Shown: piece by piece, positions 2,865 through 42,117 of the stretch
Layout of the letters: each line of letters starts with the position of its first letter
Position numbering within the stretch: position 1 is the stretch's first letter
NCBI RefSeq assembly: GCF_001647275.1
Contig: NZ_LRMM01000037.1
Span: 1-45,145 of the forward strand
Length of the DNA: 45,145 nt
Direction of reading: 5' to 3'
Source: Rufibacter ruber
Lineage (GTDB): Bacteria > Bacteroidota > Bacteroidia > Cytophagales > Hymenobacteraceae
Notes under the pieces: model-generated
What the model was told of the DNA's origin: nothing
Databases searched by the model: none
Seen by the model: only the letters and a program-made list of their open reading frames with translations
Made by a program: the position numbers and the translations under genes

Positions 2865-2906
2865 TTTCCGTTTCCGGCCTGTTTTTCCGAAATTTGGCCT
2901 AAACTG
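2865..2906. repeat. H40 hairpin repeat, degenerate copy
   Basis: This stretch resembles the H40 consensus (TTTCCGTTTCCGGCCTGTTTTT, then GGCCTAAACTG), but the right arm is decayed. It lies between the small exported protein and priA, ending a few bases before the priA TTG start. Confidence 0.4.
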
Positions 2907-2912
2907 CCCGCT

Positions 2913-5447
2913 TTGACTCCTGAACTAGAATTCAATATACCTGCTGATGACGTCCCTGAACGGGTTACTCTGTTCGCGGACGTCATTTTGCCGTTACCCC
3001 TGCCCAAACTCTTCACTTACCGCATTCCGCATGAAATGGGCGATGAGGTGCTGGTGGGCGCGCGGGTACTGGTGCAGTTCGGGGCCAAGAAGGTGCTGAG
3101 TTGTGTGGTGGCGCGGGTGCATGAGAACCCGCCTAAAGAATACCAGGCCAAATACCTGCTGGAGGTCATTGACGAAAAACCGGTGGTGACCGCCCCGCAG
3201 CTGCGTCTCTTCAACTGGATGGCTGAGTACTACCTCTGCACCCTGGGTGAAGTCATCAACGCCGCCCTCCCCTCGGCCTTAAAGCTCAGCAGCGAATCTA
3301 AAATTCAGCTGCACCCGCAGTTTCATCAGGAAACCAATGAGTGGCCGTTAACCGCCCACGAGGAGAAAATCATTTTCGCCCTCCGGCAGAAACCGCACCT
3401 CACCTTTACTGAGGTGGGCCAGCTGCTGCAACTCACCAGTTTCCATAAAATCATCAAGTCGCTGCTTCTCAAAGACATCATCATTATCTATGAGGAGATT
3501 GCGGAGAAGTACGCGCCCAAAGTAGTGAAGAAAGTCCGGCTGGCGCCCATGTTCACCACAGATGAAGCCACCCTGGAAGAACTCTTTAACCAACTGGCGG
3601 CCAAACCCAAGCAGCTGGATGTGCTGCTCAAGTACGTACAGCTCGTTCCGCTTCTGCAAGAACTGGCCGCCAATGAAGAAGGGATAGAGAAAAACCTGCT
3701 CACCTCCAACCCGCACCTCTCGCTTTCTGCAATCAACACGCTGCTGAAGAACGGCGTGCTGGAGCAGTTTGACCGGGTGGTAAGCCGTTTCCCCCTCGCA
3801 GAAGGCCGGGGCCCTTATCTGGCCACTGAACTCTCTGCAGACCAGGCGGCGGCCCGGGACCAGGTGCTGGATTTCTTTGGGGAGAAAGACACCGTACTGC
3901 TGCACGGCATTACGGGGAGCGGCAAAACCGAAGTCTACATTGACCTCATTCAAAAAGCGGTAGACGCCGGGGGCCAGGTGCTGTACCTGCTCCCGGAGAT
4001 TGCCCTCACCGCCCAGATTGTGACCCGCCTCAAACGCGTGTTTGGTGACAGGTTGGGCGTGTACCACTCCAAGTTTTCAGACAATGAGCGGGTAGAAGTC
4101 TGGAACGGCATCTTGTCAGGCCGGTTTCAGGTGGTGGTGGGCGTGCGCTCCAGTGTATTCCTGCCGTTCCATTCACTCTCCCTCCTGATAGTGGACGAGG
4201 AGCATGAGCCCTCTTACAAGCAGCATGATCCCGCCCCCCGCTACAACGCCCGCGAGGTAGCCTTGATGATGGCGCAGTTCCACAGTGCCAAGGTGTTGCT
4301 GGGTTCGGCCACGCCGTCTATAGAAAGCTATTACCATTGCCTGAGCGGCCGCTGGGGTCTGGTGAACCTGCTGGTGCGGTATGGGGAAGCCACCTTGCCC
4401 ACCGTAGAACTGGTAGACACCCGGCAGGAGAGCCTGCGCAAGAATATGCTCAGTCACTTTTCGCAGCGGCTGGTGCATGACATTGAAGACACGCTGCACC
4501 GCAAAGAGCAGGTCATTCTGTTTCAGAACCGCCGTGGCTACGCCCCGTTCATTGACTGCAATGACTGTGCCTGGATTCCCAAGTGCCGTAACTGCGCGGT
4601 GAGCCTCTCCTACCACAAGTTCTCCAATGAGCTGCGCTGCCATTACTGCGGCTATACTGAACGCAAACCCAATGACTGCCCCGCCTGCGGCTCTACCATG
4701 CTCAAAACGGTGGGCTTCGGGACTGAGAAGATTGAAGATGAGCTGAAGCTGCTGCTGCCTGAGGCAAGAATCCAGCGCATGGACCTGGACACCACCAAAC
4801 GCAAGAACAGCCACCAGCAGATCATTGAAGACTTTGAGCTGCAGCGCACTGACATTCTGGTGGGCACCCAAATGGTGACCAAAGGCCTGGACTTTGAGCA
4901 CGTGAGCCTGGTAGGCATCTTGAGCGCCGACAGCATCATTCACTACCCAGACTTTAGGGCGCATGAGCGGGCGTATCAGCTGTTTGTGCAGGTGAGCGGC
5001 CGCGCCGGCCGAAAGGGCAACAAAGGCAAAGTGCTTATTCAGACGGCCAACCCCAACCAGCCCATTTTCCAGCGGGTGATTGAGAATGACTATCAGGGGC
5101 TGTACGAGCAGGAGATTGCCGAGCGGCAAAAGTTCAGGTACCCGCCGTTTGTGCGCATGATTAGGCTTACCGTGAAACACCCTGAAGCCCGTCCCTGTGA
5201 AAACGCCGCCATTCTCCTGGCCAAGGACCTGGTAGACCGCTTAGGCAGAACCGGGGTTTTAGGCCCAGAGGCGCCGCATATCTTCAAGATCAGGAACCAG
5301 TTTCTGCAAGAAATCCATGTGAAACTGGACCGCGAGAGCGGTAATCTCAAGTACTCTAAATCGCAGATTCAGGAAGCGGTGTTTCACCTGCTGCAGAACA
5401 AAGATTTTAAGCAGTTGCGGGTTGTGGTAGATGTGGATCCCAATTAA
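2913..5447 (+). CDS. priA: Primosomal protein N' (replication restart helicase PriA)
   Basis: This 844-residue 3'-5' superfamily 2 DNA helicase reloads the replisome at stalled forks. The order is an N-terminal 3'-DNA-binding domain (LPLPLPKLFTYRIP near residue 30), a winged helix, then the helicase. The helicase shows Walker A GITGSGKTEVY (about 332-342) and Walker B DEEH (about 427-430). Next comes the zinc module with paired cysteines CNDCAWIPKCRNC and CHYCGY...CPACGS (about 549-592), inside the second RecA lobe with GTQMVTKGLDF and QVSGRAGR. The start is set at TTG 2913 because the DNA-binding domain begins soon after and the first in-frame ATG would cut into it. It is monocistronic here. 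Length and motif order are normal for PriA. Confidence 0.96.
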   Translation: MTPELEFNIPADDVPERVTLFADVILPLPLPKLFTYRIPHEMGDEVLVGARVLVQFGAKKVLSCVVARVHENPPKEYQAKYLLEVIDEKPVVTAPQLRLFNWMAEYYLCTLGEVINAALPSALKLSSESKIQLHPQFHQETNEWPLTAHEEKIIFALRQKPHLTFTEVGQLLQLTSFHKIIKSLLLKDIIIIYEEIAEKYAPKVVKKVRLAPMFTTDEATLEELFNQLAAKPKQLDVLLKYVQLVPLLQELAANEEGIEKNLLTSNPHLSLSAINTLLKNGVLEQFDRVVSRFPLAEGRGPYLATELSADQAAARDQVLDFFGEKDTVLLHGITGSGKTEVYIDLIQKAVDAGGQVLYLLPEIALTAQIVTRLKRVFGDRLGVYHSKFSDNERVEVWNGILSGRFQVVVGVRSSVFLPFHSLSLLIVDEEHEPSYKQHDPAPRYNAREVALMMAQFHSAKVLLGSATPSIESYYHCLSGRWGLVNLLVRYGEATLPTVELVDTRQESLRKNMLSHFSQRLVHDIEDTLHRKEQVILFQNRRGYAPFIDCNDCAWIPKCRNCAVSLSYHKFSNELRCHYCGYTERKPNDCPACGSTMLKTVGFGTEKIEDELKLLLPEARIQRMDLDTTKRKNSHQQIIEDFELQRTDILVGTQMVTKGLDFEHVSLVGILSADSIIHYPDFRAHERAYQLFVQVSGRAGRKGNKGKVLIQTANPNQPIFQRVIENDYQGLYEQEIAERQKFRYPPFVRMIRLTVKHPEARPCENAAILLAKDLVDRLGRTGVLGPEAPHIFKIRNQFLQEIHVKLDRESGNLKYSKSQIQEAVFHLLQNKDFKQLRVVVDVDPN

Positions 5448-5570
5448 AGTCTTTCTTTTTTCTTTGAGCAGAACGCTTTGTGCCTACAGGAATGGGTACC
5501 GCTTGTGGCGGTGTGGTTCTGTTTACCGTTAAAAATATATGGAAGTGGCTGCCGTTTCTGTTGAAATGCC

Positions 5571-5712
5571 TGGTTTGCTGTTCCCTTGGCTTTGCCGTTT
5601 GCCCCAGTGCGAAATCACTTTACTGTTTCATCTTTTGGAATGTGTGGTTTGCTGTTCCCCTGGCTTTGGCGCTTGCTCCGGTGCCTCACCCACTGCGTTG
5701 TTTCATCTTTTC
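5571..5712. repeat. Diverged tandem repeat, two ~67-bp units
   Basis: Units at 5571-5637 and 5645-5712 share TGGTTTGCTGTTCCC, GGCTTTG and TTTCATCTTTT with scattered substitutions (period about 74 bp). A third relative lies at about 14584-14649, in front of the second structured element. Confidence 0.7.
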
Positions 5713-5945
5713 CGGTAAGCGCTCACGGCCGCGGGGCCCCGTCCTGGCGGTGAGCACTGCTGTTAAAACTACGCCTTTGGCGTTGCCGCTGAAGCGGCAC
5801 CGTATTAACAGAGGCGCTCACCCCCAGGACTGGTTTCGGTTCCTTCACTGATCAGCTTGTCTGGTTATGTCTGCCTCTGCAGGTAACCGTTGCTGATCCG
5901 CTAGCCTGTGGCGAGCCCGTGCTGCGCACATCAGCCAGGGGCATG
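5713..5945. repeat. Structured dispersed element, copy A
   Basis: It is nearly identical to 14646-14878 apart from loops and spacers. A long fold is visible: GGTGAGC (5749-5755) pairs with GCTCACC (5816-5822), and CTGTTAA (5760-5766) with TTAACAG (5805-5811). Inside are two hairpins, ACGCC/GGCGT (5771-5783) and TGCCGC/GCGGCA (5784-5799). An upstream GCTCAC (5721-5726) can compete for the GTGAGC strand. Strand and function are unknown; it could act as RNA or as a DNA cruciform. Confidence 0.65.
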
Positions 5946-6006
5946 GGTGGTGGAATGTCTGTGGCAGACTGTTAGTGGCAAATTGATAGGGGCTGCTGTA
6001 GCTGCT

Positions 6007-6030
6007 GGCGCGAGTCTCCAGACTCGTGCC
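6007..6030. repeat. REP-like palindrome, AGTCT subtype
   Basis: GGCGCG and CGTGCC flank a perfect AGTCT-CC-AGACT stem. The same outer frame is used by the GAAGT-subtype palindromes that border the RAYT gene. A relative is at 15107-15130. Confidence 0.65.
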
Positions 6031-6249
6031 TGGTGATGATGGGTAGTCTCTGACTGCCCTCGCTGCCGGGCAGCGACAATGCGCAGTGTTGGTTTACCCG
6101 TGCTGAAATTCTTGAACTCCCGCTGGCGCAGGCTTGCAGCTCTTATTTTCTTTTGCTGGTCTTATATTAGTAGATAACTGTTTGGGAGTTGCTGGTGACC
6201 TGGTTCAGGTCTGCGATCTGGGCCTGCCTCACACTTCTTCGCCCCCTAT

Positions 6250-6272
6250 GGCGCGGAAGTTACTTCCGTGGC
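6250..6272. repeat. REP palindrome, GAAGT subtype
   Basis: The sequence CTATGGCGCGGAAGT is followed by TACTTCCGTG, matching the palindromes at both ends of the RAYT gene except for the last bases (GTGGC instead of GTGCC). Confidence 0.75.
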
Positions 6273-6417
6273 TTTTGAATAATGCCCCTGAAGAAGCGAC
6301 GGGGTGATATCTTTAAAAACAGACCAGAAGGCGGCAAATCAAGACACCAGATCTATTAATTTTTCGCATTTTTATACCACTTTACTTCCTGCCTTTGAAA
6401 ACCTAAAAGAGAAAGCT

Positions 6418-6801: not shown

Positions 6802-6812
6802 GCACGGGCAAT

Positions 6813-6855
6813 AAAGCAGCAGAAATATAGTTTTATTCTATATTTCTGCTGCTTT
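6813..6855. terminator. Perfect 18-bp hairpin between the VOC gene and lepB
   Basis: The arm AAAGCAGCAGAAATATAG (6813-6830), a 7-nt loop and the exact complement (6838-6855) form a strong hairpin 11 bp after the VOC stop. No long U-tract follows on the + strand, so it is either a terminator or an mRNA 3' stabiliser. Confidence 0.7.
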
Positions 6856-6876
6856 ACAACCTGTTCGCCACCAACT

Positions 6877-7980
6877 ATGAAACTCAGATTCTGGAAAGGC
6901 AAAAAGCCATCGGCCGGCCCGGCCACAAAGAAAAGCGCGGCCCGTGAATGGGCAGATGCCGTGATGTTTGCCGTGGTATGCGCCACGCTCATCAGGTGGC
7001 TCACGTTTGAGGCTTTTGCCATTCCCAGTTCTTCTATGGAGAAGTCACTGCTCACCGGCGACTATCTCTTTGTAAGCAAATTGCACTACGGTCCCCGCAC
7101 GCCCATTACCCCGCTGCAGGTACCGCTCACGCACCAAACCCTTTGGGGAACCAACCTGGCGTCGTTCTCAGACCTGGTGCAACTTCCGGCTTACCGCTTT
7201 CCCGGGTTTTCTGAGGTGCAGCACCATGACCCGGTGGTGTTCAACCACCCAGAGGAAGTGGAGCGGCCCGTTGACCTGAAAACCTACCTGATCAAGCGTT
7301 GCATTGCCGTAGCCGGTGACACCCTGGAAATCAAACACGGACAGGTGTACCTCAACGGAAAACTGTCTCCGGCTCCGGAAAAGCTCCAGTTCAGCTATTT
7401 TGTACAAACAAAGGAATACGTGCAGGAGGCGTTCTTCCGGAAGCACAACATTACCGATGTGGTACCGGTGCAGGGCGGTTATATCCTGCACACCCTCCCA
7501 AAGACGGCTGCCCTGCTCAAAACGTTTGATTTCATTCAGGCAGTTACCCCGCTCACAGCCGCCGCCGGTGAGGCTGACCCGCGCGTGTTTCCGCAGGCGC
7601 CAGAACATTACGCCTGGAACCAGGACAATTTTGGGCCACTGTACATCCCTAAGGCAGGCGCAACGGTGGCCCTTACCCCAGAGACACTGCCGCTTTATGA
7701 GAAGATCATTCGCAGGTACGAGCACAATGAGCATCTGGAGGTCAAAAATGGCCGACTGTTTCAGAAGGGCAAAGCCCTTACCCACTACACCTTCAAGCAG
7801 AACTACTATTTCATGATGGGAGACAACCGCCACAATTCCAATGACTCGCGTTTCTGGGGCTATGTGCCCGAAGAATACGTGGTAGGCAAAGCGGTCATGG
7901 TGTGGCTGTCTACAGACTCCCTGGCCTCCTCCTTCACAGACAAAGTCAGGTGGAGCCGGTTGTTCTCTGCCATCAAATAG
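6877..7980 (+). CDS. lepB: Signal peptidase I
   Basis: This is a 367-residue membrane serine protease that removes signal peptides of exported proteins. An N-terminal transmembrane helix (about 24-44) is followed by box B IPSSSMEKSL, with the probable nucleophile S53 before Met. The general-base lysine is K140 in LIKRCIAVAGDTLEI, and box E GDNRHNSNDSRFWGYVP lies near the C-terminus. The protein is longer than E. coli-type enzymes of other phyla because of a large insert between the lysine and box E, which is usual in Bacteroidota. The start ATG 6877 gives a short basic cytosolic segment before the helix. A hairpin terminator (7995-8033) and an H40 repeat follow. Confidence 0.95.
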   Translation: MKLRFWKGKKPSAGPATKKSAAREWADAVMFAVVCATLIRWLTFEAFAIPSSSMEKSLLTGDYLFVSKLHYGPRTPITPLQVPLTHQTLWGTNLASFSDLVQLPAYRFPGFSEVQHHDPVVFNHPEEVERPVDLKTYLIKRCIAVAGDTLEIKHGQVYLNGKLSPAPEKLQFSYFVQTKEYVQEAFFRKHNITDVVPVQGGYILHTLPKTAALLKTFDFIQAVTPLTAAAGEADPRVFPQAPEHYAWNQDNFGPLYIPKAGATVALTPETLPLYEKIIRRYEHNEHLEVKNGRLFQKGKALTHYTFKQNYYFMMGDNRHNSNDSRFWGYVPEEYVVGKAVMVWLSTDSLASSFTDKVRWSRLFSAIK

Positions 7981-7994
7981 CTTCTCTGCTGCTA

Positions 7995-8033
7995 CAGCCC
8001 GCGGCAGCCAAATGCGTTGGGTGCCGCGGGCTG
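7995..8033 (+). terminator. lepB intrinsic terminator
   Basis: A perfect 12-bp stem CAGCCCGCGGCA / TGCCGCGGGCTG with a 15-nt loop starts 15 bp after the lepB stop and is followed by a T-rich tract that belongs to the next H40 repeat. Confidence 0.75.
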
Positions 8034-8040
8034 ATTCGCT

Positions 8041-8076
8041 GTTTTTGGCCTACTTTTCTAAAAACAAGCCAAAAAC
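8041..8076. repeat. H40 hairpin repeat
   Basis: Arms GTTTTTGGCC and aaGCCAAAAAC form an imperfect hairpin. It sits between the lepB terminator and the DUF5655 pseudogene. The equivalent hairpin also precedes the intact DUF5655 gene (20463-20503). Confidence 0.7.
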
Positions 8077-8080
8077 GCAC

Positions 8081-10502: not shown

Positions 10503-10507
10503 CTGCT

Positions 10508-10577
10508 TTCAGAAGGTCCTATACAGGAACAGCCCTGCTTTATCTCTAAAGCAGCTGTCTGTATAGGACTTCTGAAG
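10508..10577 (+). terminator. Long hairpin terminator of the BlaI/M56 operon
   Basis: TTCAGAAG(G)TCCTATACAG pairs with CTGTATAGGACTTCTGAA, and an inner CTGCTTTA/TAAAGCAG stem closes on TCTC. There are two small bulges. It begins 6 bp after the M56 stop. Confidence 0.75.
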
Positions 10578-10610
10578 CACAAAAGCTGTGTCAACTAGTG
10601 GTGCGCACAA

Positions 10611-10656
10611 ATCCTGTTTTCGGCCTGTTTTTCATAAAACAGCCCAAAAGCAGGAT
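10611..10656. repeat. H40 hairpin repeat
   Basis: ATCCTGTTTTCGGCCTGTTTT and its near complement ending in GCAGGAT form an H40 copy with extended outer pairing. It lies between the convergent M56 and usp genes, just after the M56 terminator and 7 bp from the usp stop. Confidence 0.85.
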
Positions 10657-10662
10657 TACGCC

Positions 10663-12294: not shown

Positions 12295-12298
12295 GGTA

Positions 12299-15492: not shown

Positions 15493-15540
15493 TTTTGCGT
15501 TTTGGAGCTGTTTTCCCTAAAACAGGCCAGAAACAGAAAT
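15493..15540. repeat. H40 hairpin repeat
   Basis: GCGTTTTGGAGCTGTTTT and AAAACAGGCCAGAAACAG form an imperfect hairpin, about 35 bp beyond the ccoP terminator on the minus strand. Confidence 0.7.
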
Positions 15541-20002: not shown

Positions 20003-20294
20003 CTGAACTGCTTTCTGCCCCTGTTTGTCACGTTGATCCTTGATGCTCAACCTAACCAAAAGAATCAAGAAGCCTCAAACTCGCTGCCGCTCAAACAGGC
20101 TTCCCTTCATTAATTTCGTACCTGGCAACCGCTATCTGTTTCGTCGCCAACGCGGCCATTGCTGATTTGCACCGCCTGTCTGTGCTCCCGCTAAGCACCT
20201 CGGCGCCTACGGCTTCTGCGTTGCCCGCTCCCGCAGGAAATGAAAAGGAGGTGTGCGTTTTTGGCTTGTTTTCAGGAAAATAGCCCGGAAACGC
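20003..20294 (-). repeat. 290-bp dispersed element, copy 1 (minus orientation)
   Basis: On the minus strand it starts with an H40 hairpin and continues CTGCGGGAGCGGGC...GCTTAGCGGG...AATCAGCAATGGCCGC...TTGATTCTTTTGGTTA...GATCAACGTGACAAAC. The same order occurs at 41674-41917 on the plus strand, with one block about 48 bp shorter there. A 70-residue frame through it looks like chance or gene debris. Confidence 0.7.
20255..20294. repeat. H40 hairpin repeat
   Basis: GCGTTTTTGGCTTGTTTT, loop, AAAATAGCCCGGAAACGC. It forms one end of the 290-bp element. Confidence 0.7.
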
Positions 20295-20462: not shown

Positions 20463-20503
20463 TTTCTGTTTTTCGCCTATTTTCCTGAAAACAAGCCGAA
20501 AAC
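20463..20503. repeat. H40 hairpin repeat upstream of the DUF5655 gene
   Basis: CTGTTTTTCGCCTATTTT and AAAACAAGCCGAAAACG. It ends 11 bp before the ATG; a homologous hairpin is in the same place before the pseudogene at 8081. Confidence 0.75.
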
Positions 20504-20940: not shown

Positions 20941-20976
20941 GTTAAAAAAGTTAGAGAATAAAAAAAGTAATTAATT

Positions 20977-21005
20977 CTATGGCGCGGAAGTTACTTCCGT
21001 GCCTT
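20977..21005. repeat. REP palindrome, left end of the RAYT element
   Basis: CTATGGCGCGGAAGT followed by TACTTCCGTGCCTT, 29 bp, identical in inverted orientation to 21588-21616. It ends 27 bp before the RAYT start codon. Confidence 0.85.
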
Positions 21006-21032: not shown

Positions 21033-21584
21033 ATGAGTGAGAAGTACAAAGCCAACAATCCAGACAAGATATATTTTGTCACCTTCGCGGTGGTTCAATG
21101 GGTGGATGCTTTTACGCGGCGGGAGTACAAAGATATACTTGTAGACAGCCTGCAGTACTGCCAAAAAGAAAAAGGATTAATCATTTATGCGTGGTGTATC
21201 ATGACTAATCACCTGCACCTTGCTCTAGGCACAGATGGTAAGTTGCCACTGGCAGACATCATGCGCGATTTCAAAAAATTCACCTCCGTGTCTCTGGTGC
21301 GGGCTATTCAAGAAAATAGTCAGGAGAGTAGAAAAGAATGGCTATTGTCGCTCTTTCAAACTGCCGCAGCAGGAAGCACCAAGCATCAAAAGTACCAATT
21401 CTGGCAGAGTCAATACCACCCGGTAGAGTTAACCAGCAATGGCCAGCAGCAACGGTGCCTTGAGTATATACATCAGAATCCCGTAGTGGCAGGTATTGTA
21501 AACACGGCCGAAGCTTTTCTATACAGTAGTGCCACTGACTACGCAGGCGGGAAAGGGTTAATAGAAATAACCTTTATGGAATAA
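21033..21584 (+). CDS. REP-associated tyrosine transposase (RAYT, IS200-like Y1 HUH family)
   Basis: This 183-residue single-strand transposase is of the TnpA-REP type. The N-terminal IYFVTFAVVQWVDAFTRREY, the HUH motif NHLHL (H60, H62) in AWCIMTNHLHLAL, and the C-terminal YIHQNPVVAGIV are family features. The candidate nucleophilic tyrosine is Y128 in FWQSQYHPVEL; Y145 is the alternative. Such enzymes act on short palindromic REP sequences. Identical palindromes border the gene in inverted orientation, and solo copies of the same palindrome occur at 6250 and 15056 with a decayed one at 41608. The gene is full length and looks intact. Confidence 0.92.
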   Translation: MSEKYKANNPDKIYFVTFAVVQWVDAFTRREYKDILVDSLQYCQKEKGLIIYAWCIMTNHLHLALGTDGKLPLADIMRDFKKFTSVSLVRAIQENSQESRKEWLLSLFQTAAAGSTKHQKYQFWQSQYHPVELTSNGQQQRCLEYIHQNPVVAGIVNTAEAFLYSSATDYAGGKGLIEITFME

Positions 21585-21587: not shown

Positions 21588-21616
21588 AAGGCACGGAAGT
21601 AACTTCCGCGCCATAG
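21588..21616. repeat. REP palindrome, right end of the RAYT element
   Basis: Exact 29-bp inverted copy of 20977-21005, beginning 3 bp after the RAYT stop codon. Confidence 0.85.
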
Positions 21617-21637
21617 AAAAGAAGTGTTAGTAAGGGG

Positions 21638-23610: not shown

Positions 23611-23654
23611 ATGCGTTTTCGGCCTGTTTTTCTGAAAACAGCCCGAAAACGCAT
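23611..23654. repeat. H40 hairpin repeat
   Basis: ATGCGTTTTCGGCCTGTTTT, loop TCTG, AAAACAGCCCGAAAACGCAT: 20-bp arms with one mismatch. It starts directly after the membrane-protein stop, so it is likely to serve as the terminator. Confidence 0.85.
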
Positions 23655-23708
23655 CTCCCTCTAATTTATTTTACCACATCAACCTGTTTGCTTGGGGCCC
23701 TGCTCCCC

Positions 23709-25217: not shown

Positions 25218-26132
25218 TTTTTTGGAATAGGTGTATTATTATAAGACAATTTCAGCTGATATAAACACTAATAAATTTTTTATCGAAATTATGAATACTA
25301 CAGCACCTATCTCCCCGTTATCTTTTATTATCTCTCCTCTGGCACTGCCTCTTATCAAATATAGAAACATTAAAATAGCCAAATCACCAAAGGTTACTTA
25401 AATTCTATCTTTATTAGAAAATTTAAATTTTTTCAAACATTAACACCAAGGTCTATAGAATGATTCTAACCAGTATATCCCCCTAAAAAGAAATAGACGC
25501 TTGCGGCTGCCCCAACCCTAGATTCCTAAGGCGTGAGCGTCTGCCTTAGCCCCCCGTTTATGCCGCACCCAGGCTTTACTTTTCACCTATACGCCCCTGC
25601 TTTCAGCAGCTAGGCAGGCTTGGTTACTTCAGTAACGGGAAACGTCTCAGCAGCCAGGTGCAGCTTTTTCTGTTTTCGCTGTTTTTCAGAAAACAGGCCG
25701 AAAACGGAAACACCGCCCCCCGCAGAAGTTGGCTTCTGCCCGGGCAATTCATCAGGCAGCAGGTTTCACTTAGCCGTGTGTCCAGATCAGAGCATTAAGT
25801 AAGAAGAGAGGGGGAAACCTTGCCGGGGCAATGGCTAAGCGAATAGCCCCAGGAACCAGCCACGGGAGAGCGAGCCGCCTGCCTCTGCGGCACAGGGCAG
25901 TTAGACAATGAATTGAAAACGCAGCCTAGCTCCTGAACACTTTCCTGCCCGCTGGGTAACCCACCGGTGGGGCTGCTGCCTTTTTTGGCGAGGGCAGCTG
26001 TGGTCCATTGAACCAGGTTTACAGTTTATAAGCTACTTTTGCTATTTCAGCCCCAAAACAGAAGGCTGGCCGTGATGTGGCTGGCAAATGCCGGCGCCAG
26101 TGGTGCAAGAAAAACGGCACGCAACCTCTTGC
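25218..26132. other. Non-coding spacer
   Basis: The first 280 bp are AT-rich and probably contain the promoter of the T9SS-cargo gene. The remainder is GC-richer, holds one H40 copy, and shows no supported gene; a 60-codon frame at 25620-25802 only reads through the repeat. Confidence 0.6.
25665..25710. repeat. H40 hairpin repeat
   Basis: TTTCTGTTTTCGCTGTTTT, loop, AAAACAGGCCGAAAACGGAAA; two bases are missing from the left arm. Confidence 0.75.
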
Positions 26133-27615: not shown

Positions 27616-29835
27616 ATGGATGATTTAACTGGTCAGGTACCAGCGGGGCGAAGAATACCAATTTCTTACCAGAATTTTCTGGCACTTACTTCTCATTTTC
27701 ACTGCGTTTTTGATAATCAGGGCAGGTTTGTTTTTGCCAGCGCCGCCAGTTTTGGGCTGCTGGGCTACCAGCCGGAGGAGCTTACGGGTAAACCCCTTTC
27801 TGATTTTCTACACGCCAGAAACCAGGCAGACCAACAGCAGGAGACGCCCACTTTCTCCCGGTTGGGAGAGCCGGTAGAAACCCAGAACCACTACCTCAGA
27901 AAAGACGGCCACCTGGTGCAGCTGCACTGGAGCTCCCGGTATGTAGAGCAAGAGCAACGCACGTACGCCGTGGCCCGGCCATGCTCCCCACCAGACACGG
28001 CCGTCCTCTCCTTTCAGACAACTGAAGCCAGATACCGCGCGCTGCTAGACAATGGCTATGACATGGTGAACATTGTCACAGCCGAAGGGGAATATACTTT
28101 TGTCAGTGAATCTGTCACCAGAATCCTGGGCCACCGCCAGGAAGACCTGCTTGGCAAGAATGGGTTTGCGTACATTCACCCAGATGACCTGCCCCGGGTA
28201 CTAGCCTTCTTCCAGAGCCAGCTCCACGGCGACCAGACCCCCTCAGCCCCTTTCCGGTTCAGGGCCGCAGACGGCTCCTGGCGCTGGCTGGAGACCACCG
28301 TGACCAACCAGCTGCAGAACCCGGCCATACAGGGCGTGGTGCTCAAGTCACGGGACATGACAGACCAGATCTTGGCTGAACAGTGCCGGCATGCGGAGAA
28401 ACAGCGGTATGAGTCTCTGTTCAAATACCACCCAGATGCTGTTTTCTCCCTCAACCGCGAAGGCTATATACAGGAAGTGAACCACATGGGGTGCCAGTTG
28501 CTTCGGCAGCCAGAAGAAAAGATCCTGCAGAAGCATTTCACCAGGTTTCTGCACGCCCGGCAGCTGGAGCATTGCCTGAACCTCTTTAAGATAAGCATCA
28601 CGGGCACCGCCCAATACCTAGACACCGTTTACCTGACCAAATCTGAAGTCCGGGTAGATGTGAGCCTTACCCTTATCCCCATTCACGTAGACGGGCAAAT
28701 AGAAGGGGTCTACACCATTGTGCGGGATGTGTCTGAGATCAAAAAGAATGAACGTGAACTCCAGAAGCTCTCACAGGTAGCCAGCAAGGTGAAAAACGTC
28801 ATTCTGGTCACAGACAAGCACGGCAAAATTGAATGGGCCAATGAAGCCTTCACCCATGAGTCTGGGTACACCCTGGAAGAAGTGCAGGGCAAATGGCCCG
28901 CAGAGGTTCTGAGCGGCCCAGAAACGGAGATGCAAGCCCACCGCCGCATAGCCGAAAAGGTGAATATCAAAAAAGAGATGGCCCGTGAGGAGCTGCTCCG
29001 CTACAACAAAGACGGCAGCCTCACCTGGATTCACCTGGAGCTGACGCCCATCTTAGACGAGCAAGGTGACCTGCAGCGGGTAGTCTCGGTCACCACTGAC
29101 ATCACTGAAATCAAAACGGCCCAACAGGAAAACCTGAGACTCACAGAAGACCTTTTGCGCCAGAACCGGGACCTGCACCAGTTTGGGTATATTGTGTCCC
29201 ATAACCTACGCTCCCCGGTAGCCAACATTCTGGGGCTGGTTTACCTGCTGTCCCAAAGTGCGGCCAACCCCACCGCCTCAGAAAAGGTCATCAAGAACCT
29301 GCAGGGGGCCGCACAGCACCTAGACACCGTGATCAGAGACCTTAACCAGATTCTGACCGTACGCCAGGAGATTGTAGAACTGAAAGAGGAAATCAACCTT
29401 GCCACCGAGGTGGAGAATATCCTCAACAGCATTCACCAGCAGCTGGAGGCCTGCGGGGCAACAGCTACGGTAAACCTCACCGGCGGACAACATATCTTTG
29501 CCGTGCGCAGCTATGTTACCAGCATTCTGCAGAACCTGCTCACCAACGCCATCAGGTACCGCTCCCCAGACAGAAAACCTGAGATCCAGATTTATACTGA
29601 AACCGAAGGTGAATTCCTCTGCCTGTCTGTCAAAGACAACGGGCTGGGCATAGACCTGCCCAAAGAGAAAGACAATATTTTCAAGCTCTACAAACGGTTC
29701 CACTTCCATATTCAAGGCAAAGGCCTGGGGCTGCATCTGGTAAAAACGCAGGTAGAGGCCATGGGCGGAAAGATCACCGTAGAAAGTGTTTTGCGGGAAG
29801 GCACCACGTTCAAGGTCTGGTTCAAGCAGGCGTAA
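27616..29835 (+). CDS. Multi-PAS sensor histidine kinase
   Basis: This is a 739-residue soluble sensor kinase without transmembrane helices. Four PAS domains are visible: about 20-130 (FDNQGRFVFASAASFGLLGYQPEEL), 137-255 (NIVTAEGEYTFVSESVTRILGHRQEDLLGK), 262-378 (FSLNREGYIQEVNHMGCQLLRQ) and 385-500 (LVTDKHGKIEWANEAFTHESGYTLEE). The phosphoacceptor His is H529 in FGYIVSHNLRSPVANILGL. The HATPase domain shows NLLTNAIRYRSP, DNGLGIDL and GKGLGLHLVK. A response regulator is not adjacent, so it is an orphan kinase here. The signal is unknown; cytosolic PAS tandems often sense redox state, light or ligands. Confidence 0.92.
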   Translation: MDDLTGQVPAGRRIPISYQNFLALTSHFHCVFDNQGRFVFASAASFGLLGYQPEELTGKPLSDFLHARNQADQQQETPTFSRLGEPVETQNHYLRKDGHLVQLHWSSRYVEQEQRTYAVARPCSPPDTAVLSFQTTEARYRALLDNGYDMVNIVTAEGEYTFVSESVTRILGHRQEDLLGKNGFAYIHPDDLPRVLAFFQSQLHGDQTPSAPFRFRAADGSWRWLETTVTNQLQNPAIQGVVLKSRDMTDQILAEQCRHAEKQRYESLFKYHPDAVFSLNREGYIQEVNHMGCQLLRQPEEKILQKHFTRFLHARQLEHCLNLFKISITGTAQYLDTVYLTKSEVRVDVSLTLIPIHVDGQIEGVYTIVRDVSEIKKNERELQKLSQVASKVKNVILVTDKHGKIEWANEAFTHESGYTLEEVQGKWPAEVLSGPETEMQAHRRIAEKVNIKKEMAREELLRYNKDGSLTWIHLELTPILDEQGDLQRVVSVTTDITEIKTAQQENLRLTEDLLRQNRDLHQFGYIVSHNLRSPVANILGLVYLLSQSAANPTASEKVIKNLQGAAQHLDTVIRDLNQILTVRQEIVELKEEINLATEVENILNSIHQQLEACGATATVNLTGGQHIFAVRSYVTSILQNLLTNAIRYRSPDRKPEIQIYTETEGEFLCLSVKDNGLGIDLPKEKDNIFKLYKRFHFHIQGKGLGLHLVKTQVEAMGGKITVESVLREGTTFKVWFKQA

Positions 29836-29841: not shown

Positions 29842-29885
29842 TCTTGTTTGCGGGTCTGATTTTTCTGAAAACAGCGAAAAACAGA
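29842..29885. repeat. H40 hairpin repeat, degenerate
   Basis: TCTTGTTTGCGGGTCTGATTTT and GAAAACAGCGAAAAACAGA, 7 bp after the kinase stop codon. Confidence 0.55.
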
Positions 29886-30229
29886 ATCTTTTGCCGGCGC
29901 CAGCGGAGCATCACTACCACCTTTGCTTACCAGAAAGTGCAGGCGGGAGGGCTATTGGTGCAAGAGAGACAGCAGAGCAGCAATACCCGGCAACGCAGGA
30001 GTGTGACCAGGTAAGCGGCTCAAAATTTGATTGAAAGCAGGCTTTTGGCGCAATTGGGTGCAAGGGTCTCCGTTTTTAGGCTGTTTTCAGAAAATCAGCC
30101 CGAAAACAGACCCTGATCTCCCCATAACAGCACAACCGGCCACGCATGCGCCAGATGGGAAAAACCTGAACAGCTTGCCGGTGAGGAGTGCTTGTAACGC
30201 CAGTTCTTTTGGCAACACCAAAGACCCTC
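29886..30229. other. Non-coding spacer between convergent genes
   Basis: Besides one H40 copy no feature is supported. Short frames here are chance. Confidence 0.5.
30064..30113. repeat. H40 hairpin repeat with extended outer stem
   Basis: GGGTCT at the left and AGACCC at the right extend the usual arms (CGTTTTTAGGCTGTTTT / AAAATCAGCCCGAAAACAG). It lies downstream of the CDF gene. Confidence 0.75.
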
Positions 30230-32186: not shown

Positions 32187-32192
32187 GCCTTT

Positions 32193-32253
32193 CCTATACT
32201 GTCATAAAAAAAGCGCTACCCACATAGTAGCGCTTTTTTTATGACAGTATAGG
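32193..32253. terminator. Perfect 27-bp bidirectional terminator
   Basis: The arms 32193-32219 and 32227-32253 are exactly complementary, with AAAAAAAGCGCTAC / GTAGCGCTTTTTTT at the core and a 7-nt loop. Runs of A and T inside the stem suit termination from both strands. It lies between the convergent Lys/Ala-rich and HAD genes. Confidence 0.85.
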
Positions 32254-32264
32254 AGACCAGGTTT

Positions 32265-32304
32265 CTGTTTTTGGGCTGTTTTTCAGAAAACAGCCCAAAA
32301 ACAG
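32265..32304. repeat. H40 hairpin repeat, perfect copy
   Basis: CTGTTTTTGGGCTGTTTT, loop TCAG, AAAACAGCCCAAAAACAG: 18 of 18 pairs. Compared with 42078-42117, arm position 8 is T-A instead of C-G, a complementary change. Confidence 0.9.
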
Positions 32305-37266: not shown

Positions 37267-37444
37267 AATATGGTTCTTTTCTAATGGTCTGATGGGGGCA
37301 CAAAGTTAACAGGTTCCCATACATCTAACTCATAAAGCCATAAATAGAAACAAAAGTTTAACAAGAAGGAATTTAATTTTGACAAGGAACTGAGAACCAC
37401 CCCATATTGAAAACCGCCTCTGGCTATTCCCTGGCGGGCATGAT

Positions 37445-37486
37445 CTTGTTTTGGAGCTGTTTTTGAGAAAACAGCCTGAAAACGCA
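37445..37486. repeat. H40 hairpin repeat
   Basis: CTTGTTTTGGAGCTGTTTT, loop TGAG, AAAACAGCCTGAAAACG. Confidence 0.75.
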
Positions 37487-37684
37487 ACGTCAGCAGGTAG
37501 TCTGGCAGCGCCAGGTGACCGGTAGCCGCAGTGCCCCCAACCACCCCGGCCTAGTTGCCATCTTCCAGCTGTTACGGCTGCCCCTTGTTCTATACCTTCT
37601 TTGGCAAAACTGGGCACCCTCTGTTTTTACGCGCATGAAAACCCGCACATAGACTACAACCTGATGCTGCCCCACCCAACTAAA

Positions 37685-37734
37685 ATTCCTGTTTCCGGGC
37701 TTGATTTTTGGGAAAACAGCCCGGAAAAGGAATT
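37685..37734. repeat. H40 hairpin repeat with compensated arms
   Basis: Outer ATTCC/GGAAT and inner TTTCCGGGCT/AGCCCGGAAA pair well although the sequence differs from the consensus CTGTTTTCGGG. It lies about 54 bp downstream of the SDR stop on the minus strand. Confidence 0.75.
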
Positions 37735-37787
37735 ACTGCAAATGCCTTTCGGCCTGAATGGAGAGCGCGCTGAACGGTAAAGTACGG

Positions 37788-38810
37788 TTACAGCTCATTG
37801 TTCTCCCTAGCCGCCTTCTGGTTTGGCGCGTTCAAGGGTGACTGGGTGAGTTTGGTTTCGCTTTCATAGCCGCGCACGGTTTCTTTGCCCACCCCGCCCG
37901 GACCGGGGAGAAAGGCGTTTACAAACCCCATCAAGTCAGTTACCACCCCCGGGAAAAGCCCGTGTACCAGGCTGGCCAGCTTGGCGTTCAACCCCAGGGT
38001 GACCTCTGCTTTGCCGTAGCGGCAGGCATCCATGATCTGGCGGGCGGCGTTGTCTGCGGCCAGGGAAATCATAGGGTTGGCGTCTAGCAGCGCAAAAGCG
38101 GTGTACTCCTTTTCGTTCTGCCCTTTCAGAAAGGCGTTGCGGGCGCTGCCCGTGCGCATGAGCCCGGGGTTTACCGTGGTTACGTAGATGCCGTCTTTCA
38201 GCAACTCAGACCGGAATCCCTCAGACATGCCCACCAGCGCAAACTTGCTGCCGCTGTAGGGCACCAGGTGGGGCACGCTGATCTTTCCGCCAATAGAGGC
38301 GATGTTCACAATACGGCCTTCCCCGCGGGCTTTCATTTCTGGGATCACCTCCAGCATGGTGTAGAGCGAGGCCCAGTAGTGTACCTTCATGGCCTGCTCA
38401 AAATCCTCTACCGTCATCTCCTCCAGCGGACCGGCGGCAATAATGCCGGCATTGTTGACCAGCACCTCCACGGGCCCCAGCCGGTCTTTGATCTCAGCAA
38501 TCATGCGCTTCACCTGCGCCTGGTCACTCACATCACAGTTGAAAGACAAGACCGTGGCCCCGCCGTTTCTCAGCTCCTCACAGGCTGCCTCCAGCTGGTG
38601 CTCTGTGCGGGAGCAGATGGCAATATTGGCACCCTGTTCGGCAAACATTCTGGCCAGCACCAGCCCTAACCCGCGGCTGCCCCCGGTGATGAGCACCGTG
38701 CGGTCTTTAAACGCGAATTCCCTTTTTTTGCGGGAGAAGGAGCGCAGGGCTAACACGGCCCCCAGGCCAGCGCCGGCCAAAAGCAGGTTTTTCTTGGTTC
38801 TATTTTCCAT
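37788..38810 (-). CDS. SDR family NAD(P)-dependent oxidoreductase, membrane-anchored
   Basis: This 340-residue protein has an N-terminal hydrophobic segment (LLLAGAGLGAVLALRSF, 9-25) that may anchor it to the membrane. A classical short-chain dehydrogenase follows: TGGSRGLG (42-49) for the dinucleotide, NNAG (119-122), S172, and Y185-x-x-x-K189 (PYSGSKF). R68 in ICSRTE after strand 2 suggests NADPH preference. A C-terminal extension (PGPGGVGKETVRGYESETKLTQSPLNAPNQ) goes beyond the usual ~250 residues. The substrate is unknown. The gene begins 4 bp after ligD, so they share a transcript. Confidence 0.92.
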   Translation of the reverse strand: MENRTKKNLLLAGAGLGAVLALRSFSRKKREFAFKDRTVLITGGSRGLGLVLARMFAEQGANIAICSRTEHQLEAACEELRNGGATVLSFNCDVSDQAQVKRMIAEIKDRLGPVEVLVNNAGIIAAGPLEEMTVEDFEQAMKVHYWASLYTMLEVIPEMKARGEGRIVNIASIGGKISVPHLVPYSGSKFALVGMSEGFRSELLKDGIYVTTVNPGLMRTGSARNAFLKGQNEKEYTAFALLDANPMISLAADNAARQIMDACRYGKAEVTLGLNAKLASLVHGLFPGVVTDLMGFVNAFLPGPGGVGKETVRGYESETKLTQSPLNAPNQKAARENNEL

Positions 38811-38814
38811 GGTT

Positions 38815-41364
38815 CTATTTTTTCAGTTTCTTCAGGTATGCCGCCACGTCAATTCCTTTGCCCAGCACGGGTTTGAAAAGATCGCCCAGCTGTTGCACGC
38901 GCTGCGGCACGTTCTTTATAGTAAACTGTGATGGGTGCAATCCAGTTGTCACTTCCTCCCACTTTAATGGGGTGGAGACGGTGGCCCCTGGCCTTGGCCG
39001 AACGCAATACGGTGCGGCAATGGTCTGGGCAATGGCGTTCTGCAGGTAGTCCAGGTACACCTGGTTTCTTCTTTCCTTGGGGCTGCGCTCCAGACTGGTG
39101 AGGGTGGGGAGCTTTGCCTGCACCTGCTGCGCCAGCAACAGGGCCAGTTCTTTTACCTGCTCAAACGGCCACTTCGCCCCCAGCGGCACGTACAGGTGCA
39201 TGCCTGTGGCACCAGAGGTTTTGGCATATACCGGCATCTCCAGCGCATCCAGCACCTGCTTGGCCGCCAACGCAACCTCTACCACCTGGTCATAAGTGTT
39301 CTCACCGGGGTCCAGGTCCAGCACCAGGTAGTCTGGCTTGTCTAAGTGCGGCAGGCGGGAGTTCCAGGGGTTGAGCTGAATGCAGCCCAGGTTGTTGAGG
39401 TAGGCCAGCGTTGCCTGATCCTGGCAGACCAGGTAGTCTACGTCTTTGCCCGTAGACTCGGCTTTGATAGAAGCCACCTGCACCCACGCTGGTGCATGGT
39501 CTCCCGCGTCTTTCTGGAAGAAGCCGGGTCTGGTAATACCGTTGGGGAAGCGCAGCAGCGACTCAGGCCGGTCTTTCAGATATGGCAGAATTACCTCAGC
39601 CATGGTCTGGTAGTACTGCACCAGCTCCAGCTTGGTGATGCCTTCCTCTGGCCAATAGAGCTTGTCTGGGTGTGTAACCGGTACCTGCTGCCCGTTTAGC
39701 TCCAGCACCGTGGTGTCTTTTTCCTTCTTCTGCTTTGGGGCTGTTTTGGCTTTTCCAGCCCCTGAACGGGAAGGCGCCTCCCGCTGCTGATCCTCTTGCG
39801 GAGGGACCGCCTGTTCATGCACCACCTCTTGGGCCTTTTTGTCAACCCGCAGCCCTTTGAAGATGGCCTGGCGCATCTGCCCGTCAGTGGTCCACTCTGC
39901 AAATGACAGTTCACAGACCAGTTCTGGTTTTACCCACGTCACGTTCCGGTTCAGCGCCACCTTCTGGTTGAACGGAGATTTTTCCTGTACCAGCGGCTCC
40001 AGCTTCTCTATCAGTTCCTGCAGGCTTTTCTTGTTGAAACCGCTTCCGGCCTGGCCCACGTACTTGAGTTCTTTGCCCTCATACACGCCCAGCACCAGCG
40101 CCCCCAGGTGCTGGCGGCTGCCCTGCGGCTCTGTGAACCCGGCAATCACGGCCTCCTGCCGCAGGTGCGTCTTGATCTTAAGCCACTCCTGCGACCGCTT
40201 GCCGTCATAGTATCTGCTCTGGGCGGCTTTGGCCATAATGCCTTCCCACTGGTTTTTCTGCGCCTCTTTGAAGAATTTGGTGCCATTGCCTACGCGGTGG
40301 TCACTGTAGCGCAGCGGGTCTTTGGCTTTGGAGAGCACCTGGGCCAGCTTTTCCTTCCGCTCCAGCAGGGGCAGCGCCCGCAGGTCTTCGCCGTTGAGGT
40401 ACAGCAGGTCAAAGATGTAGTAGTACAGATGTTCTGAGGGTGTGTTCTGGTAATTCTGCAGCGCCTGGAAATCAGCCCTGTTTTTCTTGTCCAGCACCAC
40501 CAGCTCGCCGTCAAACACGGCCTGGTGCGGCAGCTGCGCCAGCGCCTCTGCCACCGGTCTGTATTTCGCATTGAACGACTTGCCGTTGCGGGAGTAAAGC
40601 TGCACCTGTCCGTTTTCTACTTCGGCCACGGCGCGGTAACCGTCCCACTTCACCTCAAAGAGCCAGTCTGGGTCATCAAAGGGGCCGTTGGTGAGTTTGG
40701 CGGTCATGGGGGAAATGTGCTTCGGCAGGGCTGCTGGCTTTCCTTTTACTCCTTTTTTTTCGGCGGCCGCCGAAGCGCTTTTTTTGGCAGTGGGTTGGGC
40801 GGGGGCTTTCTGTGGGGCGGCGGTGTCTGTGAAGTCTTCCGCGTCATACGGCTCATGCACGGCGTGGGCATCGTCTTTCTTGAGCAGGAGCCACGCGTCT
40901 TTCTGGCGGCCTTTCATTTTCACCAGCGTAAACTCGCCCTGCAGCTTTTTGCCTTCCAGCACAAAGTGCAGGCCCCCGGCCTTGAGCTCTTGCAGCATCT
41001 GCTGCTCGCCCTTGGCGCGGTTGGCGGTGCCCACGGCGTGGAACGTGCCCTGGTCCCAGATCTCTACGTGCCCGGCCCCATAGTTTCCCTCAGGAATGTC
41101 ACCCTCAAAGGTGCGGTAGCTGTAGGGGTGGTCTTCTACCTCAACCGCCAGCCGTTTGTCTGCCGGGTTCAATGACGGCCCTTTGGGTACCGCCCAGCTT
41201 TTAAGCACGCCCTCCAGTTCCAGCCTGAAATCATAGTGCAGCCGGGAGGCCTGGTGCCGGTGCACCACAAAACGCAATGCGCCCTTTCGCCTGGCTTCTT
41301 TGCCCTCAGGCTCCGGGGTCTGGTCAAAGTGGCGTTTCTGGTTATATTCTTCTAATGGATTCAT
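38815..41364 (-). CDS. ligD: DNA ligase D (bacterial NHEJ ligase/polymerase/3'-phosphoesterase)
   Basis: This 849-residue non-homologous end-joining enzyme has the order phosphoesterase - ligase - polymerase. The first domain (about 1-175) begins NQKRHFDQTPEPEG and has RFVVHRHQASRLHYDFRLELEG. The ATP-dependent ligase has its adenylated lysine in FEVKWDGYRA (K239) and runs to about 500. A Lys/Ala/Gln-rich linker follows. The primase-like polymerase (about 560-849) shows THPDKLYWPEEGITK and the metal-binding DLDPGE. ATG 41364 is chosen because the phosphoesterase starts right there; the open frame continues upstream through an H40 repeat. No Ku gene lies nearby. The SDR gene follows after 4 bp. 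Confidence 0.95.
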   Translation of the reverse strand: MNPLEEYNQKRHFDQTPEPEGKEARRKGALRFVVHRHQASRLHYDFRLELEGVLKSWAVPKGPSLNPADKRLAVEVEDHPYSYRTFEGDIPEGNYGAGHVEIWDQGTFHAVGTANRAKGEQQMLQELKAGGLHFVLEGKKLQGEFTLVKMKGRQKDAWLLLKKDDAHAVHEPYDAEDFTDTAAPQKAPAQPTAKKSASAAAEKKGVKGKPAALPKHISPMTAKLTNGPFDDPDWLFEVKWDGYRAVAEVENGQVQLYSRNGKSFNAKYRPVAEALAQLPHQAVFDGELVVLDKKNRADFQALQNYQNTPSEHLYYYIFDLLYLNGEDLRALPLLERKEKLAQVLSKAKDPLRYSDHRVGNGTKFFKEAQKNQWEGIMAKAAQSRYYDGKRSQEWLKIKTHLRQEAVIAGFTEPQGSRQHLGALVLGVYEGKELKYVGQAGSGFNKKSLQELIEKLEPLVQEKSPFNQKVALNRNVTWVKPELVCELSFAEWTTDGQMRQAIFKGLRVDKKAQEVVHEQAVPPQEDQQREAPSRSGAGKAKTAPKQKKEKDTTVLELNGQQVPVTHPDKLYWPEEGITKLELVQYYQTMAEVILPYLKDRPESLLRFPNGITRPGFFQKDAGDHAPAWVQVASIKAESTGKDVDYLVCQDQATLAYLNNLGCIQLNPWNSRLPHLDKPDYLVLDLDPGENTYDQVVEVALAAKQVLDALEMPVYAKTSGATGMHLYVPLGAKWPFEQVKELALLLAQQVQAKLPTLTSLERSPKERRNQVYLDYLQNAIAQTIAAPYCVRPRPGATVSTPLKWEEVTTGLHPSQFTIKNVPQRVQQLGDLFKPVLGKGIDVAAYLKKLKK

Positions 41365-41460
41365 AGCAGTGTTTGTTAGCAGAGGTAGGGGGCAGGCATG
41401 CCCGGCCTCTCCCTCACCATTTTTCAGCCTTTTACGGAAGAACGGGCCCAGATGCTGTAC

Positions 41461-41501
41461 GCTGTTTTTGGCGTGTTTTGAGAAAAACGGCTCCAAAACA
41501 G
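41461..41501. repeat. H40 hairpin repeat
   Basis: GCTGTTTTTGGCGTGTTTT, loop, AAAACGGCTCCAAAACAG; several mismatches. Confidence 0.7.
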
Positions 41502-41607
41502 GAATGATCACCCGTACAGGCGGCACAGCAGAGGCGGCAGGCATAGGAAACAGGCATTTGAAAAGGAGGACTTGCTGTCAGCATAGCGCACAGGTACCTG
41601 CCTTGAA

Positions 41608-41630
41608 GGCACAGACGTACCTCCCGCGCC
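41608..41630. repeat. REP palindrome, decayed, inverted orientation
   Basis: GGCACAGACGTACCTCC and CGCGCCATAG match the right-end RAYT palindrome with several substitutions in the stem. Confidence 0.6.
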
Positions 41631-41673
41631 ATAGAGAACATTTTATACCACAGCCATATAGCAGAGGCTACTC

Positions 41674-41714
41674 TTTGCGTTTTGGGGCTGTTTCCAGGAA
41701 AACAGCCCACGCAA
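41674..41714. repeat. H40 hairpin repeat
   Basis: TTTGCGTTTTGGGGCTGTTT, loop, AAAACAGCCC then ACGCAA: part of the right arm is deleted. Confidence 0.65.
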
Positions 41715-41917
41715 CCCACCTCACCTGCGGGAGCGGGCGAAGGGAAAGCCGAAGGCGCCTGGGAGCTTAGCGGGGGCCCGGGCAGACGGAGGAAGTCAGC
41801 AATGGCCGCCGCAGCGATGGAACCGCGGGGGCAGCGAGTCAGGGGCGGCTTGATTCTTTTAGTTACGTTGAGCAGCAAAGATCAACCTGACAAACGTGGG
41901 CAGAAGGAAAGTGCAGC
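41674..41917 (+). repeat. 250-bp dispersed element, copy 2
   Basis: It starts with an H40 hairpin and shares CTGCGGGAGCGGGC, GCTTAGCGGG, TCAGCAATGGCCGC, TTGATTCTTTTAGTTA and GATCAACCTGACAAAC in the same order with the reverse strand of 20003-20294, but lacks about 48 bp of that copy. Confidence 0.7.
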
Positions 41918-42077
41918 TTGTGGTTTGGCAGGAACGGGAGGGGGAGCATCTGCTCTTCGTAATCTGGGGCGATGGAAATTCCCACCATCTGCAGGAGAGA
42001 AATGACCAAAGCGTAGCCCCTCCCCAGAGCCTCTCCCAAGAGGGGGGGGTGATCAGAAAATCTAACAACTGCAGTTT

Positions 42078-42117
42078 CTGTTTTCGGGCTGTTTTTAAGA
42101 AAACAGCCCGAAAACAG
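42078..42117. repeat. H40 hairpin repeat, perfect copy
   Basis: CTGTTTTCGGGCTGTTTT, loop TAAG, AAAACAGCCCGAAAACAG: all 18 pairs intact. It touches the terminator at 42116-42150. Confidence 0.9.

Follow-up and report, generated by a model that had tools for sequence, protein, structure and literature searches.

Iterated palindromes confined to particular bacterial lineages include ERIC, BIME and HIP1, of which the first two are intergenic and the third is an 8-bp sequence located mostly within genes. All three differ in sequence and size from the palindrome family described here, which was encountered in contig NZ_LRMM01000037.1 (45,145 nucleotides; this whole stretch is hereafter the window) and is referred to as the Rufibacter family. 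Further counterparts are the GTAG/CGTC repetitive extragenic palindromic (REP) repeats, characterized as imperfect palindromes of 20-40 bp, intergenic and present in many copies, with the CGTC repeats reported to be without a dedicated transposase (PMC3733652). The DNA uptake sequences of Neisseria are described as present in about 2,000 copies per genome, with an excess in intergenic DNA, with inverted pairs acting as terminators and with uptake needing only a single site of 10-12 bp (PMC2397512); dialects of these sequences are also reported (PMC3630211).

The Rufibacter family shares with REP elements the imperfect palindromes of 20-40 bp, the intergenic location and the many copies, but it has no conserved GTAG, CGTC or other foot tetranucleotide, shows no sign of mobility, has the letters of both arms under selection and occupies positions common to species. 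It resembles the Neisseria uptake sequences in copy number, intergenic location and the existence of dialects, and differs from them in its unit of about 36 bp and in the near absence of single half-sites; the reading as a DNA uptake sequence was set aside because half-sites almost never stand alone, and most copies also lie outside called genes. The intrinsic terminators of the same genomes are similarly positioned at gene ends, and some of them use the T-tract of the element or enclose it, but their order is A-rich, GC stem, T-rich, whereas the element by itself runs the other way, T-rich at the 5' side and A-rich at the 3' side. No literature on repeats of this genus was found among open-licence papers.

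Here, we show that the core of the element is conserved by letter and not mainly by pairing, that the family is old and mostly inherited vertically between related species, and that the element sits preferentially at the ends of transcription units. Because the copies are old, mostly stay in place and are constrained in letter on both arms, they point to a recognized DNA site. The reading that we favor, tentatively and at slightly less than even confidence, is that of a palindromic site specific to the genus and located at the ends of transcription units, perhaps as a terminator or boundary working in both directions. On this view, selection maintains a dyad-symmetric DNA site of about 36 bp, consisting of GTTTTNGGSCTGTTTT, four central bases and the reverse complement of the first arm. 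Being symmetric, a single copy could act on transcription from either side.

In the window's genome (G000; 5.5 Mb in 166 contigs), the 15-base arm with at most one mismatch occurs 737+706 = 1,443 times, against 0 for the reversed control. A degenerate pattern retaining only the most conserved letters, with up to 2 mismatches allowed (0-2 matches for reversed controls), matches 2,103 sites in G000, 405-1,993 in each of 15 other genomes of the genus and 0-3 per genome in 104 genomes from five further genera in the family. The same genus limit emerged when a covariance model was built and run across genomes of the family, as the first-pass annotation of the window had proposed: built from 40 copies of 16 genomes and applied to 150 candidates per genome, which gives presence and not counts, it returned 139-150 matches in each of the 16 genomes and 0-3 in each of 27 genomes outside the genus, with G022, among the latter, reaching E 5e-8. 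Assignment of the genus to Rufibacter is an inference from the two genome_contigs stretches that alone carry the exact hairpin, which come from Rufibacter sediminis H-1 and Rufibacter sp. XAAS-G3-1. Density in the sampled stretches is about one copy per 1-2.5 kb. With both arms pooled, the consensus differs among genomes in the manner of dialects. In G000 (208 copies) it is GTTTTNGGSCTGTTTT; G012 (11 copies) has CTCATTT as the inner end, and G004 (11 copies) has GTTTWGGGGC. A trans-acting reader could explain such genome-wide dialects. A recent expansion in this one species, suggested by the exact-arm counts, was ruled out, given that the other dialects are similarly dense in the relatives. 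Only one IMG/VR stretch (L102 1275-1310, on a 39-kb contig that may be a provirus or host DNA from the genus) exactly matches a stricter form of the pattern.

According to the first-pass annotation, structure rather than sequence appears to be kept, and a statistical test of covariation was called for. Copies were collected blind to pairing, by a half-site matrix that recovers 204 copies in 445 kb of G000, 191 in 440 kb of the relatives G006 and G013 together and 200 in 332 kb of other relatives (a mixed set that includes the block upstream of priA of some genomes), with 0 copies on shuffled sequence. Counting positions (d) outward from the palindrome center, d3-9, d11 and d15-18 display essentially no covariation in the three sets (|z| <=2.2, except d16 in the mixed set, z 3.0). 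Covariation is found at d13 in two of the three sets (z 3.6 in G000, 4.0 in the mixed set and 1.0 in G006 and G013), at d12-14 in one clade and in the outer stem, and thus does not run through the stem. The outer positions reach z 1.9-4.2 at d19-22 in G000 and 3.1-5.9 at d20-23 in G006 and G013; in the clade of G003, G002 and G014 (273 copies, orthologues being counted more than once), z is 4.4, 4.7 and 6.5 at d12-14 and 2.1-3.3 at d19-24. A first table with strong core covariation was discarded as selection bias, its copies having been picked by pairing; covariation in palindromes must be measured on copies that were not picked for pairing. In the 40-copy alignment, which mixes related species and dialects, the excess of pairing under the named structure is modest (82.9% paired against 79.7% when shuffled), although none of 500 shuffles reaches it. 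The proposal that structure rather than sequence is kept is mostly wrong: covariation is real at a few positions and in the outer stem, and the core is kept by letter.

Base pairing would be the selected feature if the element were an RNA 3'-end hairpin, acting as a terminator or exonuclease barrier, an explanation that we consider quite improbable. In its favor, compensatory changes between orthologues in the outer stem (d19-24) are about threefold over expectation (22 vs 7.9 and 29 vs 9.5), and stems extend outward with paired but unrelated bases, as the first-pass annotation had noticed: at least 6 consecutive pairs from d19 outward are present in 43 of 539 copies against about 1.7 expected (this pool, like those used below for gaps, stop distances and strand, includes orthologous copies, and significance leans high). 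Against it, besides the lack of covariation at most core positions, the T-A pairs at d15-16 are almost never swapped for other pairs, and compensatory changes in the orthologous cores are in sum close to chance (17 vs 13.5 and 12 vs 11.4 expected); in the G003 set, d8 and d10 are nominally above chance and d14 shows 12 against 1.9 expected. There is also little strand asymmetry, the sense-strand arms of 345 tandem copies being alike in letter frequencies, with the largest gaps at d6 (T 0.82/0.69) and d22 (T 0.51/0.36).

Each arm carries T-tracts about 11 bp apart, and past d20 no letters are fixed on either side, T occurring about half the time at d21-22. The central position d1 avoids complementary bases (z -5.7, -4.8 and -3.5 in the three sets): among 539 pooled copies, the central dinucleotide is AT in 7, GC in 22, CG in 24 and TA in 36, against 195 for CA/TG, with AG/CT also favored. 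Self-complementary centers are perhaps avoided because perfect palindromes are unstable. Half-sites of at least 18 bits almost always belong to a palindrome, palindromic and lone half-sites numbering 354 vs 7 in G000, 340 vs 1 in G006 and G013, and 156 vs 1 in G003, G002 and G014, which shows that both halves are needed.

Conservation between species was followed in orthologous pairs, chosen for scoring in both species. The collinear stretches of G006 and G013, 220 kb in each, share 81% identity, and 85 of 93 G006 copies have an orthologous G013 copy within 400 bp (median offset 7 nt; shifted positions 28%), compared with the 4-16% expected above threshold after neutral decay at 30-38% divergence. 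Across these 85 pairs, identity is 97-99% at d4, d5 and d14-16 and 92% at d8, with d7, d10 and d12 near the level of the flanks (65%); in 100 G003-set pairs (of 109, those with flank identity >0.5), d4, d5, d15 and d16 are 94-97% identical. Retention is likewise 56 of 78 copies between G003 and G014 (26-37% expected neutrally) and 53 of 88 between G003 and G002 (5-9% expected); copies without an aligned partner number 22/78, 35/88 and 36/82 in three comparisons. Of the 8 G006 copies without a G013 partner at threshold, one has a weaker copy at the same place, and of 14 G013-only copies, 7 have a G006 copy nearby and 7 do not; the rest of the unmatched copies lie, by eye, mostly in non-aligning gaps. 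At larger distances there is turnover, given that a copy downstream of priA, present by eye in 13 of 15 relatives (in some of them weak or about 135 nt off), is missing from G000.

The preference for transcription-unit ends was measured on called genes, inside which lie 4 of 204 copies in G000 and 9 of 191 in G006 and G013. Among G000 gaps of at least 45 bp, copies occupy 38 of 43 convergent, 85 of 149 tandem and 20 of 44 divergent ones. The contrast sharpens in short gaps (40-199 bp), where convergent, tandem and divergent gaps with a copy number 15/16, 17/52 and 0/7 in G000, 17/21, 22/59 and 1/5 in G006, and 14/18, 19/60 and 1/4 in G013 (convergent vs divergent, p=3e-5 in G000 and 0.02 in G006). 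In tandem copies, the distance from stop codon to palindrome center peaks at 20-30 nt (71/345), with a second rise at 60-80.

In the window, a gapped local alignment of the consensus yielded exactly 17 places, with scores of 18-38, against three matches, all scoring 13, in five dinucleotide-preserving shuffles. The following copies and adjoining hairpins were delineated:

2870-2903, block upstream of priA, listed earlier as a copy and here doubtful; score 18
7995-8033, + strand, intrinsic-terminator-like hairpin of 14 bp, after a + gene ending at 7980 and close before the copy at 8039
8039-8076, palindrome copy, its outer T-tract following hairpin 7995-8033; score 20, 49 bits
8590-8629, palindrome copy with stem extension TTT/AAA; score 34
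10614-10653, palindrome copy in the convergent gap 10503-10662, with AATC/GATT extending the stem; score 32
15499-15536, palindrome copy; score 22
20257-20292, palindrome copy; score 21
20466-20503, palindrome copy; score 22
23615-23650, palindrome copy in the 98-bp convergent gap 23611-23708; score 32
25670-25705, palindrome copy; score 31
29845-29884, palindrome copy with shifted arms in a convergent gap, 9 bp past the stop of gene 27616-29835 (+); score 24
30072-30109, palindrome copy in the same convergent gap, with GGGTCT/AGACCC extending the stem; score 29
32265-32304, perfect palindrome copy, T-A at d13; score 36
37447-37483, palindrome copy; score 29
37689-37727, palindrome copy with shifted arms and CC/GG in both outer arms; score 25
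41462-41501, palindrome copy upstream of the supported ligD start; score 21
41679-41708, weak palindrome copy; score 21, 18.5 bits
42078-42117, perfect palindrome copy with C-G at d13, located 3' of the - gene 42168-42725; score 38
42117-42149, - strand, terminator-like hairpin adjoining copy 42078 and leading, on that strand, directly into CTGTTTTC

Sixteen of the 17 places in the first-pass annotation thus belong to one palindromic family. The remaining block, near 2865, was set aside as doubtful because of its lowest score, its poorly pairing arms and its position upstream of priA in all 16 genomes, although it reaches 25 bits by the pair matrix. The details of that annotation hold as well: the two perfect copies differ by T-A versus C-G, the copy at 37685 is altered in both arms, and those at 10611, 23611 and 30064 have extended paired stems, that of copy 23615-23650 (ATGCG/CGCAT) starting directly after a stop codon. 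As it had also stated, no copy lies inside a supported coding sequence; copy 41462 falls in the open reading frame 38815-41544, but upstream of its LigD-matching residues. The copies at 29842 and 37685, with their shifted arms, are missed by the ungapped matrix scan; copy 32265-32304 is also recovered by the covariance model, of which it is itself a member. Recent identical duplication, which had been named as an alternative source of the copies, was not found in the sample, where all 200 of 200 40-mers differ and flank identity is at least 0.6 in only 2 of 19,900 copy pairs. Many copies elsewhere in the genome have tied covariance-model scores, and therefore identical cores probably exist there. 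Another hairpin (28-pair score, internal A/T runs) lies at 32192-32254, about 11 bp from copy 32265, and a further strong one at 6812-6856. Consensus scans for promoters and terminators over window positions 1-40000 gave values close to shuffled means, and Rfam gave 0 matches in the window at gathering score.

At the second rise in stop distance, a GC hairpin often ends where the T-tract of the arm starts, as in the window at 7995-8033 with 8039 and at 42117-42149 with 42078. Counted per genome, tandem copies 56-110 nt from the stop have a hairpin within 60 nt upstream in 11/28 (G000), 6/8 (G006) and 5/11 (G013) cases, and this hairpin adjoins the arm in 5, 5 and 4 of them, respectively; flank-shuffled controls have any upstream hairpin in 7/200, 1/89 and 2/93. 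The order of an intrinsic terminator, a GC hairpin followed at once by a U-tract, is present in a subset of copies if neighboring or enclosing stems are counted, and is not present in the core alone. The long stems (the 43 of 539 copies above) are more frequent in convergent gaps (14% vs about 6%, p=0.008), and many such copies resemble terminators whose apex is the element, with 3.1 T in the 8 positions after the end compared with 2.2. These nested hairpins and their modest T-richness are also what an RNA hairpin would predict, as is an excess of fold stability near gene ends, estimated from real versus chimeric arms with uncorrected p-values: G000 tandem copies within 110 nt of the stop (p=1e-4) and G013 convergent copies (p=2e-3 for cores, 1e-4 with flanks) show it, three other near-end sets show it weakly with flanks, and far-tandem and divergent copies show no such excess.

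Under the favored reading of a palindromic site at transcription-unit ends, the element would stop or insulate transcription in both directions, and a factor of the genus would recognize its constant core in double-stranded or extruded form. In some copies, the outer T-tract stands directly after a GC-rich hairpin, in the place of a U-tract; in about 8%, a longer hairpin particular to the locus carries the core at its apex and is followed, on average, by slightly T-rich sequence. A bolder form, which we regard as rather unlikely, is a dedicated boundary system in which a trans-acting factor reads the 36-bp dyad at hundreds to more than 1,000 gene ends and stops or insulates transcription on both sides, site and factor changing together by species to give the dialects, and intrinsic terminators having come to use or enclose the site.

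Several observations weigh against assigning the element to transcription-unit ends or to termination. The genes were called by an in-house codon-usage method that gives coding fractions between 0.57 and 0.71 for G000 and misses real genes, among them the window's REP-associated tyrosine transposase (RAYT) gene, and 29 of 186 copies in the other relatives fall inside called genes. Divergent gaps, where no called gene ends, hold copies in 27/53 cases in G006 and G013 and 16/20 in the others, in addition to the 20/44 of G000, and such copies also count against an RNA hairpin. In short gaps, the contrast is unclear in G003 (4/7 convergent, 14/33 tandem and 0/1 divergent, not significant for convergent vs divergent) and G002 (6/9, 14/33 and 1/1), two genomes in which short convergent gaps are scarce. 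Where a copy directly follows a stop, a GC hairpin lies upstream in only 0/28, 2/25 and 0/20 cases and T-richness downstream is weak; such copies are therefore not canonical intrinsic terminators. No stability excess was detected in G006 cores, G013 tandem cores or G000 convergent cores, sense and antisense folds do not differ in stability (p=0.53), and G-U is hardly above A-C (482 vs 457; near stops 314 vs 263).

The occupation of long gaps of every orientation would also suit a chromosome-structure site, bound by a nucleoid protein or gyrase between transcription units, with termination as a side effect. The dyad-symmetric letters, the spacing of the T-tracts within each arm and the density of the copies are consistent with this explanation as well, but it needs neither the preference for short convergent over divergent gaps nor the fit to stops and hairpins, and it appears distinctly unlikely to us.

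Another origin to be weighed is an old REP-like or MITE-like (miniature inverted-repeat transposable element) non-autonomous palindrome that was spread in the ancestor of the genus by a transposase, either a RAYT or one since lost, and then fixed and partly co-opted. We consider this unlikely, though less so than the two other alternatives; in its favor are the intergenic location, the palindromic form with imperfect stems, the many hundreds of copies, the sharp genus limit and the genome-specific dialects. Three RAYT-like genes were found in G000:

Window 21033-21584, + strand, RAYT (NF047646.1)
L061 1390-1941, RAYT-like gene (PF01797)
L059 1252-1800, RAYT-like gene (PF01797)

Two of the three have members of the family on both sides, at 1315-1351 and 2101-2139 in L061 and, nearest, centered at 1104 and 1984 in L059, about 130-170 bp from the gene ends (L059 holds 7 members in 3.2 kb), and a past link to RAYT may therefore have existed. 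The window gene is unflanked, the closest member of the family lying about 530 bp away with a second on the same side, and all three genes adjoin other repeats: 31-nt inverted repeats at 20975-21005 and 21588-21618, holding the palindrome CGGAAGTTACTTCCG, in the window, 71-nt inverted repeats of another sequence in L061, and GGCGCAAGC-type repeats in L059. The CGGAAGTTACTTCCG palindrome has 68 exact occurrences in the genome, further ones in the window being at 6254 and 15060, and with this identity of the inverted flanks the link to REP families through the window RAYT was weakened. By eye, the repeats beside the L061 and L059 genes share a TGGCGC- or TGGCAC-like foot.

Further observations count against this origin. 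G006 has 0 Y1_Tnp matches at E 0.001 and yet 1,230 sites, and therefore a gene of the RAYT type is not needed to keep the family. No convincing empty site emerged from 736 directional tests between species, although many of these tests lacked alignable flanks and so could not have shown one, the sole candidate being a poor 71% alignment, and no clear target-site duplications were seen in 82 copies. The retention of copies and the constraint on their letters, both greatly exceeding neutral expectation, likewise count against a spread relic.

The doubtful block near 2865 belongs to a segment of about 50 bp (window 2860-2912) directly upstream of the TTG start of priA, recognizable in 16/16 genomes, closely alike in 13 and diverged in G006, G012 and G013; it is possibly a leader, a regulatory site or an unrecognized gene start.

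Selfish debris or RNA hairpins are frequent explanations for iterated palindromes in bacteria. If the boundary reading is true, the Rufibacter family would represent a lineage-specific way to end transcription, and its species dialects would offer a test of co-evolution between a many-copy site and its reader.

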